Positions 3,161 to 6,964 of a stretch of DNA of 64,000 nucleotides are shown here, piece by piece. Every line of letters begins with the position of its first letter. Position 1 is the first letter of the stretch. Under the pieces are notes generated by a model that made no database searches, was not told the origin of the DNA, and worked only from the letters and a program-made list of their open reading frames with translations. The position numbers were made by a program, and so were the translations under genes. The DNA is from Streptomyces sp. NBC_00654. GTDB taxonomy: Bacteria; Actinomycetota; Actinomycetes; Streptomycetales; Streptomycetaceae. The stretch covers positions 2,728,001 to 2,792,000 of the forward strand of contig NZ_JAPEOB010000001.1 in NCBI RefSeq assembly GCF_026341775.1, read 5' to 3'.

Positions 3161-3495
3161 CCAGCGTTCCCCGGCCATCCAACCCGGAAGATCAGACGAC
3201 GGGCACCGGCACCGTGTGTGCCGCCCGCCGTCCAGCGACACCGGGTTCGGCTCCGGGTTCGCCGCAGGCTCCGGCCTGCGGCGTTCCCGGGACCGGCGAA
3301 GCCACCGGTACCCGCGGGCGCGGCTCGGACCTCCGCACGGCGGCCCGTCAGGGCGGCCCGCAGCGCCGACGCGATGCCCGTCCTCGTTCCGTGCGGCACG
3401 GCCAGGCCCGCGACGACCAGCCGGTTGGCCGGCGCGCGCACGGCGTCGGCAGCCGCCGCGCCCCACGCGACCAGCAGAAACATGACCCAGAGCAT
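3109..3495 (-). CDS. Possible small hydrophobic-start protein downstream of the TIGR04222 gene
   Basis: An open frame of about 128 codons begins with [19 protein letters not shown], which reads like a membrane or signal segment, and continues with an Ala/Arg/Gly-rich stretch. Third positions are mostly G or C over the first 80 codons, as in real genes here. It would be the third gene of the minus-strand DUF692-TIGR04222 set. Against it: no good ribosome-binding site was seen, no family is recognised, the last part has poor composition, and the end overlaps the 3' end of hemQ on the other strand by about 50 bases. A frameshift in the distal half or a non-coding explanation are both possible. 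Confidence 0.3.
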
Positions 3496-3566
3496 GGCGG
3501 ATTTCTCCGCGAGGCGGACGGGGAGCGCCACGCCCTGTTCAGCATGCGGACGGCCCGCAGGCCGGT

Positions 3567-4640
3567 TCAGGAACTGCTGCCGCAGCTCGACCCGCCGGAG
3601 CTGCCGCAGCTCGACCCGCCGGAGCTGCCGCAGCTGGAACCACCGGAGCTGCCGCAGCTCGACCCGCCCGAACCGGAACTGCAGCTGGAACCCGAACTGC
3701 AGCTGGAACCGGAGCCCCCGCCCCCGCCGCCCCCGGACGAACCCCCGCAGCTCGCACCGCCGGGGCTCGCCCCGGCACACCACACCGTCGCGGCGGCGTA
3801 CGCGTCCGCCGTGGAGGAGGACGAGGTGTGCGGGGCCGAGGACGAGGCGGGACGGAACGCCCTCGACCGGCCGTTCCCGGTACGGAACCGCGCCGCCGCC
3901 GTCAACTGCCCCCGGAGCACGGGGTCGGGCAGCGCGCCCAGCCCCAGCGTGGCCACCAGCTGGGCCGGAGCCATCGCATAGGCGTGCGCGGCCCGGTACT
4001 CCTGGACCGCCTGCCGCCCCTCCTTCGTGATCCGGTTCCCGGTGGCCGTCATGACGATGAGGCCGGTCAGGCCGCCGATCACGATCGCGGGCAGCATCTT
4101 GGCGATGAACGGGAACGGCATGTCCGCGTATCCCTCGTGCATCGTGTACTGCATGAAGGTCAGGACCAGCGAGAGAGGGAAGGCCACGAGGCAGAACAGC
4201 CCCTGGACCAGCGCCCAGCGGCGGTGCGGCCGGGTCTCCTGCGGGGAGACCAGCAGTCCCCGGGCGGCGAGCCCGTCGCCGATCTCCTGTACCGCCGGAT
4301 GCCGCATCACGGTCTCCCGCAGGGTGTGCAGCGCCCCGTTCGGGGCGGCGGCCAGCGTCTGGAGCACGGCCCGCTCCACCGGGTCACGTGCCTCCGGCCG
4401 CTGTACGGCGACGATGCCGGGGCCGCCGATGATCAGGCGCCCGTCCGCGTGGAGGCCGGTCAGCGCGCTGTCCACCACCCTGGCCGGGCCGCCGTTCAGG
4501 AAGGCCGCCTCATAGAGGTCGTGAACGAGCGGGCGGGTCCGCGCGCTCCGCCGGCCGGCGCGGGCGGCGCCGATCTGGATGAGCAGCAGCGCCGAGGAGA
4601 GGACCACCGCGAACGTCAGCAGAGTCGCGAGAACGTTCAT
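3567..4640 (-). CDS. TIGR04222-type membrane protein with Cys/Ser/Gly repeat tail
   Basis: 357 residues. Membrane segments are visible at about 4-24, 142-165 and 182-202, with a cytosol-like domain between the first two. From residue 286 the protein becomes low complexity: a poly-Gly run, two GSSCSSG units, then four perfect GGSSCGSS units ending the protein, giving eight Cys in the tail (288, 298, 314, 320, 329, 337, 345, 353). This layout is that of TIGR04222 proteins, whose tails are variable and often Gly/Cys/Ser rich. The gene starts 6 nt after the DUF692 gene on the same strand, so it is probably cotranslated. Function is not established; a substrate role for the DUF692 partner is an inference. 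Confidence 0.85.
   Translation of the reverse strand: MNVLATLLTFAVVLSSALLLIQIGAARAGRRSARTRPLVHDLYEAAFLNGGPARVVDSALTGLHADGRLIIGGPGIVAVQRPEARDPVERAVLQTLAAAPNGALHTLRETVMRHPAVQEIGDGLAARGLLVSPQETRPHRRWALVQGLFCLVAFPLSLVLTFMQYTMHEGYADMPFPFIAKMLPAIVIGGLTGLIVMTATGNRITKEGRQAVQEYRAAHAYAMAPAQLVATLGLGALPDPVLRGQLTAAARFRTGNGRSRAFRPASSSAPHTSSSSTADAYAAATVWCAGASPGGASCGGSSGGGGGGGSGSSCSSGSSCSSGSGGSSCGSSGGSSCGSSGGSSCGSSGGSSCGSSS
3578..3660 (-). repeat. 24-bp tandem repeat encoding GGSSCGSS units
   Basis: Within the TIGR04222 gene the DNA repeats with a 24-bp period (core gctgccgcagctcgaccc), each unit encoding one eight-residue GGSSCGSS block. Copies are nearly identical at the DNA level, one carrying a few silent differences. 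Such repeats expand and contract by slippage, so Cys number is likely to vary between strains. Confidence 0.8.
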
Positions 4641-4646
4641 GACGGG

Positions 4647-5999
4647 TCACTTCCCCACGAGGACGGCACGGGCCGCCCGGACGAGACGGGTCGTACGACG
4701 CGGGGGCCGCGGGGCCGCCCGGTCCTGCCACCAGTGGGTGAGCCGCCTCCTGGCGGCCGCGTCCTGCGGCAGCCCCGCGATCAGCAGGTGCTCGGCGAAG
4801 TCGAGCGCGTCGCGGCGGTATCCGGCGGAGAGCGGCCGGGTCATGGCGTACGCGAGGTAGGCGTTCCGGTAGCCGTCGCCGAGGATCTCCGGCAGCTCCG
4901 GCGCCACCTTGGCCACCACTCCGGCGCGCTTGGCGGCCAGCGCCCGGCTCTGCACCTCCAGGCGTCGGCGGTCGAAGCCCTCGGGGGTCTCGGTGCCCGC
5001 GACGAGAGCGGAGAGCAGCGCGGTCTGGGCGGCGGCGAGGCGTTCCCGGACGTCGGCCCGTACCGCCGGGGCTGCGGGGGCTACGAGTACTGCAGGGGAC
5101 CGCTGTACCGCCGGGGCCTCCGGGGATGCCAGGGCCTTCGGGATGCCTGAGGCCTTGGGGATCCTTGAGGTCTTGGGGGCCGCGGCGTCCAGCGTGGCGC
5201 GGATCGTGGTCAGTTCGCCCGCCAGCTCCGCCGCGGGCGGGAAGTCGTCGTCACGCTCCAGCAGCACACCGGGCGGATCGACCCGCGAGCGCAGCTCGGC
5301 CAGCACGTCCAGGACGGGCCGGGTCACGGGATGGGCGTGCGTGTCGTGCCAGACGCCGTCCCGCTCGACACCACCGGCCACATGCACGTACGCGATGGCC
5401 TCCACCGGCAGTTCACCGAGTGCCTTCGCGGGGTCCTCGCCGCGGTTGACGTGGTTGGTGTGCAGATTGGCCACATCGATCAGCAGCCGCACCCCGGTGC
5501 GCTCGACCAGCTCCGCCAGGAACTGTCCCTCGGTCAGTTCCTCGCCGGGCCAGGAGACCAGCGCCGCGATGTTCTCCAGGGCCAGCGGCACGGGCAGCGA
5601 GTCCTGGGCGATCCGCACGTTCTCGCACAGCACCTCCAGCGCGTCCCAGGTGCGCGGCACCGGCAGCAGGTGGCCCGCCTCCAGCCGGGGCGACGCGGTG
5701 AGCGGCCCTCCGGCGCGTACGAACGCGATGTGCTCCGTCACCAGCGGCGTACCGAGCAGCTCCGCCCGTGCGCCCAGGTCCGCGAGCCTGCCCGCGTCCG
5801 GGCGGCCGGCGCCGCCCAGGCCCAGCGACACACCGTGCGGTACGACGGTGACGCCGCGCGCCCGGAGCCGTACCAGCGAGTCCGGCAGATGATCGGCACA
5901 GAGGTTCTCCGCGACCGCCTCGACCCAGTCGATCCCCGGCAGCGCCTCCACGGCGTCGGCGATCTCCGGCCGCCAGCCGATCCCGATTCCCAGCTTCAT
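4647..5999 (-). CDS. DUF692 (MbnB-like multinuclear iron oxygenase family) protein with SCO6045-like C-terminal domain
   Basis: 450 residues. Residues 1-265 form a DUF692 TIM-barrel. Candidate metal ligands stand where the family has them: H55, E89-H90, E142-N143, D175, H180/H183, H206, D219-H221 and E248. Characterised members (MbnB, TglH) use iron to modify Cys or other side chains in peptides. After an Ala/Pro linker (about 270-315) a helical C-terminal domain of about 130 residues follows; MbnB-type enzymes usually have a separate partner protein here, so this may be a built-in partner. The ATG at 5999 follows GAGGGGGGACACC, a strong ribosome-binding site, better than an upstream in-frame start. 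Six bases separate it from the Cys-tail membrane protein gene. Confidence 0.88.
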
Positions 6000-6178: not shown

Positions 6179-6964
6179 TCAGCGGCGCAGCGCCGGGTGG
6201 TCGGCGACCACCGTGCAGGACCCCGGGGCGATCTCCGTGAACCCGGCGTCGCGCACCACCGGCAGGCCGCTCACGGTCAGGTCGCGCCAGCGCGCGGGGT
6301 CCGCGGTGGCCACGGCGAGCGGGAAACCGGCCTCGCGCCACGCCTTGCGCTCCGGGTCCGACAGCTCCCACCAGGCGAGCTGCGCCCCGTGCCCGGCCTG
6401 TGCCATGGTCTTGCCCGCCGACATGTCCAGGTCCGGGTTGAGCCACAGCACCGGAGCGGCCGGATCGGGCGCGGCCGGGGGCCGCGGGTCGTCCAGGTCG
6501 GTGCCCGACACCTGGAGCTTGGCCAGCTCCTTGGGCCAGCCGTCCAGGGGCACCGGCGGGAACACCCGTACCTCGGCGCTCTCGCCCGTCACCGTGATCC
6601 CGGGCAGCGCGGACGCCTTGCGCCACTCCGCGCCGCGCGCCCGACGCACGACCTTGCGGATACGGGCGTCCTGCCAGTCCCGCATCACCTGCGCCCACTC
6701 GCCCTCGTCCAGGGAGCGTTCGTCGGACAGCATCGTCAGCACCGCGCGGGCGGCGGTCCGTAGGGCGTCGGTACGGGCCGGGGGGTCCGTCTTCTCCAGG
6801 TGCAGCACGAGCGGCAGCACGAACTGCGGCGCCTCGTCACGGTGGGTCGGTTCCGTCCGGAACGGGCTGTCCGGTTCGGACCCGGCGGGTTCGGTCGCGA
6901 CGGCCGGGGGCGCGGCGGGCCGGGGTGCGGCGGACGGGTTCGCTGGGGTGTCGTTGCTGCTCAC
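6179..6964 (-). CDS. Peptidyl-tRNA hydrolase 2-like protein
   Basis: 261 residues. The middle and C-terminal part carries LDMSAGKTMAQAGHGAQLAW, matching the PTH2 family signature in which a conserved Lys and the following Gln/His helix form the active site. PTH2 enzymes release peptides from peptidyl-tRNA; in bacteria that already have the canonical Pth this copy is of unclear role. The first 45 residues are a Pro/Ala-rich linker with no fold. The N-terminal half (about 45-150) is not typical of short archaeal PTH2 proteins. The gene stands alone, divergent from the aim24-like gene. Confidence 0.75.
   Translation of the reverse strand: MSSNDTPANPSAAPRPAAPPAVATEPAGSEPDSPFRTEPTHRDEAPQFVLPLVLHLEKTDPPARTDALRTAARAVLTMLSDERSLDEGEWAQVMRDWQDARIRKVVRRARGAEWRKASALPGITVTGESAEVRVFPPVPLDGWPKELAKLQVSGTDLDDPRPPAAPDPAAPVLWLNPDLDMSAGKTMAQAGHGAQLAWWELSDPERKAWREAGFPLAVATADPARWRDLTVSGLPVVRDAGFTEIAPGSCTVVADHPALRR

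Follow-up and report, generated by a model that had tools for sequence, protein, structure and literature searches.

MNIO (DUF692) enzymes form unusual cysteine-derived groups, some of which bind copper. In the methanobactin (MbnBC) and 3-thiaglutamate (TglHI) systems the substrates are short peptides and the partner proteins are separate chains, and a system with a separate partner is also described in the accessible part of PMC13174530. Closest to the case treated here is the survey of Antoine et al. 2025 (PMC12452194), the accessible sections of which count more than 3,500 TIGR04222 proteins, propose the cysteine tails of subsets of these proteins as MNIO substrates, and place the tail in the periplasm from predicted transmembrane-segment topology. 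Those sections name clusters such as 'Adjamnio-II - MNIO - TIGR04222', give the gene order peptidyl-tRNA hydrolase - MNIO - TIGR04222, report that 490 of 1372 genomes with TIGR04222 genes (a third) are without MNIO genes, and record no partner gene in many MNIO-TIGR04222 clusters. A bacteriocin cluster of Pseudonocardia with a TIGR04222 peptide is mentioned in the accessible part of a 2016 paper (PMC5183585). Here we analyze a 64,000-nucleotide stretch of Streptomyces sp. NBC_00654 (the window), in which an MNIO gene is followed by the gene of a TIGR04222 membrane protein with a cysteine-rich tail. We propose, with a probability of about 0.5, that the two form a self-contained MNIO system in which a partner-fused cytosolic enzyme modifies the cysteines of the GSSC units in the tail of its membrane-anchored neighbor. 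The preliminary description of this DNA had offered the link between DUF692 enzyme and tail as inference; the accessible sections of the survey show the same link, window gene order included, already in print, although there too only as a hypothesis, and we found no experiment on it in the open-licence literature searched. New relative to the published hypothesis are the fused-partner architecture and the likely cytosolic position of the tail.

The computed basis of the proposal comprises the assignment of both proteins to their families, the counterparts of known metal ligands, fusion and fission of a C-terminal domain, the composition of the tail, the tendency of cysteine tails to accompany MNIO genes in organisms outside the genus, and a charge bias around the membrane segments. 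The enzyme has 450 residues and is encoded on the minus strand at 4647..5999, stop codon included (ATG at 5999, coding part 4650-5999, stop codon at 4647-4649); it is the only MNIO gene product of the whole source genome. Its catalytic domain (PF05114, 5193..5990, minus strand, residues ~4-269) scored 252.8 bits against a gathering cut-off of 25 (E 4.4e-75). The best NCBIfam model was BufB, the MNIO enzyme that acts with a DUF2063 partner in bufferin synthesis, at 169.3 bits and thus under the BufB cut-off of 310. The locus resembles the bufferins in its enzyme family; in place of their Sec-exported peptide, its candidate substrate is a protein that passes the membrane several times. For TglH, the accessible part of PMC10880893 lists nine Fe ligands. 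Seven were matched by direct alignment (E142, D175, N178, H206, D219, H221 and E248), and the remaining two counterparts, H55 and H90, lie outside the TglH alignment and were matched through conservation and an alignment to 3bww, so that the full set of candidate ligands first noted for the DUF692 protein held up. An MNIO gene was present in 141 of 150 sampled Streptomyces genomes, which makes this near-core biology in a well-studied genus. Some Streptomyces carry another MNIO type (L227, L228 and L229) with a higher PF05114 score and a true DUF2063 gene directly downstream.

The part of the enzyme beyond the catalytic domain contains a C-terminal domain at 4704..5069 (minus strand, residues ~311-432; PF26136 in the precomputed annotation of relatives), followed by a basic end at 4650..4703 (minus strand; net charge +8 over the last 24 residues). 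At the 27 MNIO loci examined outside the genus this domain was a separate gene in 17, fused in seven and absent in three, the separate gene lying directly after the MNIO gene on the same strand, and the MNIO tree required six changes between the fused and split states. DUF2063 was the Pfam family most often touched by relatives of the domain (3 of 18 and 13 of 73 in two scans), although the window domain itself reached only 13.1 bits against DUF2063 (PF09836, PME-type 1), under the gathering score of 27.2, and gave no match in a second scan. Of the alignments behind this work, A1 was built from 18 hand-picked domain frames, A2 from the window protein and 72 of 120 listed proteins, and A4 from the window protein and 40 of 120. 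Because the domain is distantly DUF2063-like and occurs both fused to the enzyme and as a separate gene just after it, it is probably the "missing" MNIO partner protein, and the fused partner suggested in the preliminary description is plausible. The PME-type 2 partners are, in the accessible sections of PMC12452194, small helical proteins encoded beside MNIO genes. Like them, the domain is encoded with the MNIO and has no DUF2063 signature over the cut-off, and its standalone relatives, named in Micromonospora and other actinobacteria, are of similar size; it differs in being fused to the enzyme in the window, and the likeness is one of size and position. Neither TglI nor NGO1945 was among the structures listed. 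We found no report of a fused MNIO partner in the open-licence literature examined on TIGR04222, DUF692, SCO6043-6046 and fused partners.

Six bases (4641-4646) separate the MNIO stop codon from the start of the TIGR04222 gene (3567..4640, minus strand, stop codon included), which encodes a 357-residue protein that we call TIG-A. It scored 161.9 bits with the TIGR04222 model (NCBIfam cut-off 43). Three hydrophobic segments were called, all on the minus strand, at 4578..4634 (residues 3-21), 4155..4211 (residues 144-162) and 4053..4109 (residues 178-196). The Gly/Ser/Cys tail begins at W287-C288 and occupies 3570..3782 (minus strand; 71 residues, eight cysteines, predicted disordered). It ends in four identical GGSSCGSS units (3573..3668, minus strand, residues 325-356), so that a recount agreed with the preliminary description in spacing, repeat units and number of tail cysteines. 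In an AlphaFold2 model most of the first 250 residues had block means of 73-96 and the tail was disordered. Of 20 TIGR04222 proteins scanned, 8 weakly matched the C-terminal region of DUF2207 (PF20990), with a best E of 0.013; the window protein reached 11.4 bits, under the Pfam cut-off of 33. The source genome has three TIGR04222 matches, one of them under the cut-off. A protein over the cut-off, ~740 kb away in the same genome (L182), has a Ser/Gly tail end with two cysteines and no adjoining MNIO gene.

The tail is a tandem repeat whose length and cysteine number vary between relatives, as would be expected if it had arisen by neutral low-complexity drift of Gly and Ser codons unrelated to the enzyme. 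We consider such an origin very improbable. Among the matches listed, 117 of 120 TIGR04222 relatives start the tail with [x]WC, and those 117 tails contain 6-11 cysteines (~12% Cys), mostly in a GSSC(G/S) context, a recurrence that exceeds chance. Moreover, the repeat units are identical in the protein and not in the DNA, since the 24-bp array at 3576-3668 (3.9 copies) is only 91% matched. Finally, most TIGR04222 tails for which no MNIO gene was found have 0-2 cysteines. Two variants were seen among the relatives. In one (L094), a TIGR04222 frame directly after the MNIO gene ends just past the WC start of the tail, the Cys repeat being gone; in the other (L113), a tandem pair of Cys-tailed TIGR04222 proteins follows a split MNIO and partner domain.

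The two families co-occur, as the preliminary description had anticipated, and outside the genus it is the cysteine-rich tails that go with MNIO neighbors. At least three cysteines in the last 60 residues were found in 18 of 20 TIGR04222 frames adjoining an MNIO gene versus 1 of 17 frames for which no MNIO was found (p 1.9e-7). A stricter rule fixed beforehand, which added a content of at least 50% Gly plus Ser, gave 14/20 versus 0/17 (p 6e-6). Six of the 17 frames came from one genus code; collapsing these gave p 7e-6 for the three-cysteine rule, kinship being otherwise uncorrected. Left out of the tail test were the TIGR04222 places G054, G020:C224 and G107:C25, rows under ~33 bits, and the neighbor at L153, which the local profile missed. 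Also outside the genus, three of six TIGR04222 proteins encoded away from the MNIO gene, in genomes that have one, had at least three cysteines. The linkage survives a change of gene order, since all 19 TIGR04222 frames outside the genus lie upstream of the MNIO gene, and those in Streptomyces downstream of it. At the 80 named loci closest to that of the window a Cys-tailed protein directly followed the MNIO gene in 72, and four of the other eight were cut by a contig end.

Over 91 three-segment TIGR04222 proteins, the loop joining segments 2 and 3 had a mean Lys plus Arg count of 0.6, against 3.2 in the 20 residues preceding segment 2 and 4.1 in the 25 residues that follow segment 3. Among the Cys-tailed three-segment proteins (n = 35) both flanks exceeded the loop in 33, and one flank fell below the loop in one. 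This bias indicates that the soluble domain and tail are likely on the cytosolic side, together with the MNIO enzyme, and so runs counter to the published periplasmic view (PMC12452194). If the tail were instead extracytoplasmic, it would have to be modified before or during insertion and would form an outward-facing metal-binding array, much like the surface array of the preliminary description. The predicted transmembrane topology in the accessible sections of the survey (PMC12452194) favors that arrangement. Furthermore, our topology rests on a charge rule applied to simple hydropathy calls with guessed starts, by which 35 of 126 proteins gave no three segments, and thus either other topologies exist or the hydropathy rule fails there. 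Given the charge distribution in the 91 proteins and in 33 of the 35 Cys-tailed ones, however, we regard an outside tail as improbable, and a surface array was not supported.

In the self-contained system proposed here, the cytosolic iron enzyme would carry a substrate-presenting partner as its fused C-terminal domain and would oxidatively modify cysteines in the GSSC units of the disordered tail, which the adjacent TIGR04222 protein would anchor to the inner membrane face. This would yield an array of thiols, modified at several sites, that is tethered to the membrane and faces the cytosol, its most likely use being metal binding or the buffering of thiol and oxidative stress. The six-base spacing, the tail association, the fused and split forms of the domain, the location of enzyme and tail on the same side by charge bias and the predicted disorder of the tail support this model. 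The roles of the tail as MNIO substrate and of the C-terminal domain as partner are inferred from these features; the chemistry, by analogy with other MNIO enzymes, may be of the thiooxazole or oxazolone type, and the modified thiols would presumably serve metal or redox functions. The full statement, that a single-chain, partner-fused MNIO modifies up to eight tail cysteines at the cytosolic face and that the resulting array is an internal metal or redox buffer rather than a secreted peptide, is put forward tentatively, at odds somewhat short of even. If it is correct, an integral membrane protein is a true MNIO substrate. The clusters of Antoine et al. 2025 share with the window both families, the tail type and the gene order; in the accessible sections of PMC12452194 they are often partnerless and have a periplasmic tail, in contrast to the proposed fused DUF2063-like domain and inside tail of the window. 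The survey left its partnerless MNIO-TIGR04222 clusters unexplained; a fused partner and an inside tail offer explanations that can be tested directly.

The distribution of the enzyme within Streptomyces weighs against so exclusive a pairing. We examined 75 MNIO loci of the genus, taken as about every second row of a score-ordered list plus class-sample genomes and the window, and hence not a random sample; L124 and other MNIO types (L180, L181 and L227-L231) were dropped from the counts. L124 is a second MNIO of genome G254 that has a six-Cys TIGR04222 neighbor and no C-terminal domain. A Cys-tailed TIGR04222 protein was present at 32 loci, 34 had only TIG-B, a Cys-poor TIGR04222 paralogue, and nine (three of them contig-cut) had neither such neighbor, so that 43 of 75 loci were without an adjoining Cys-tailed protein. 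Its absence falls mainly in one clade (41 of 42 rows, three contig-cut; SH-aLRT 98), with four changes of presence in all on the Streptomyces tree. In the 39 of these 43 loci that were tested, 14 conserved H/D/E/N columns were unchanged, the nine ligand counterparts included. Outside the genus no TIGR04222 neighbor was found at 9 of 27 MNIO loci, and an MNIO gene without any TIGR04222 match occurs in genomes G018 and G112. Conversely, three of the nine Streptomyces genomes without an MNIO match have a TIGR04222 match, one of which (in G292) has a three-Cys tail. A dedicated enzyme-substrate link therefore keeps the support of the association outside the genus, but its exclusivity is weakened.

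Since the tail-less clade keeps the MNIO with conserved active-site residues, the enzyme must have a role beyond this tail, and it probably has at least one other substrate. Taken further, the main substrate could lie elsewhere, in a peptide from another locus or in TIG-B, and the Cys-tailed protein would then be a co-regulated metal or thiol binder with an unmodified tail. TIG-B retains three cysteines near its membrane segments (in 31, 33 and 32 of 33 frames at loci having only TIG-B, and in 16, 16 and 19 of 19 frames at loci that also have a Cys-tailed protein), which, with the retention of the enzyme in the tail-less loci and of its ligand columns in the 39 tested, favors that alternative. 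Against it is the fact that Cys tails go with MNIO neighbors outside the genus, and TIG-B is no universal substrate, as both TIGR04222 proteins are missing from six of the 75 loci although more than 4 kb after the MNIO gene is covered there. On balance we think this alternative less likely than the model proposed here, and the tail-less Streptomyces clade lends itself naturally to testing whether the enzyme acts on any substrate besides the tail.

A remnant of a second TIGR04222 gene of the TIG-B type lies at 3316-3504 of the window (minus strand). Most of the gene is gone; the start of the remnant corresponds to residues 1-23 of an intact relative and its middle to residues 117-151, the latter at 86% over 35 residues. 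A DUF4142-like frame followed the MNIO gene at 24 of the 43 Streptomyces loci that lack the Cys-tailed protein versus 2 of the 32 that have it (L093-L226), as if substituting for it. This protein was not adopted as a replacement substrate; the one example read through (L111) had no cysteine in its domain part.

PF26136 is named after SCO6045, which is presumably the MNIO gene of S. coelicolor. In the accessible part of PMC4991794, SCO6045 was induced threefold by H2O2 in a manner dependent on HbpS-SenS-SenR, and the list holding it is dominated by genes of sulfur assimilation and cysteine synthesis. This sole expression lead is compatible with a thiol or redox role for the system, though not proof of one.

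The upstream neighbor in the window is a PTH2-type peptidyl-tRNA hydrolase gene (6182..6964, minus strand) whose product has one cysteine, probably outside the mechanism. In Streptomyces hemQ lies beside the locus in 59 of 75 loci and PTH2 in 60 of 75 (window: 3216-3700 to 6964). PTH2 and HemQ were set aside as functional members, since neither had a match at any of the 27 MNIO loci outside the genus. The clusters of Antoine et al. 2025 likewise have an upstream peptidyl-tRNA hydrolase with one cysteine (Table 2 in the accessible sections of PMC12452194), but theirs have 233-256 residues and belong to PF01195, whereas the window hydrolase has 261 residues and belongs to PF01981.
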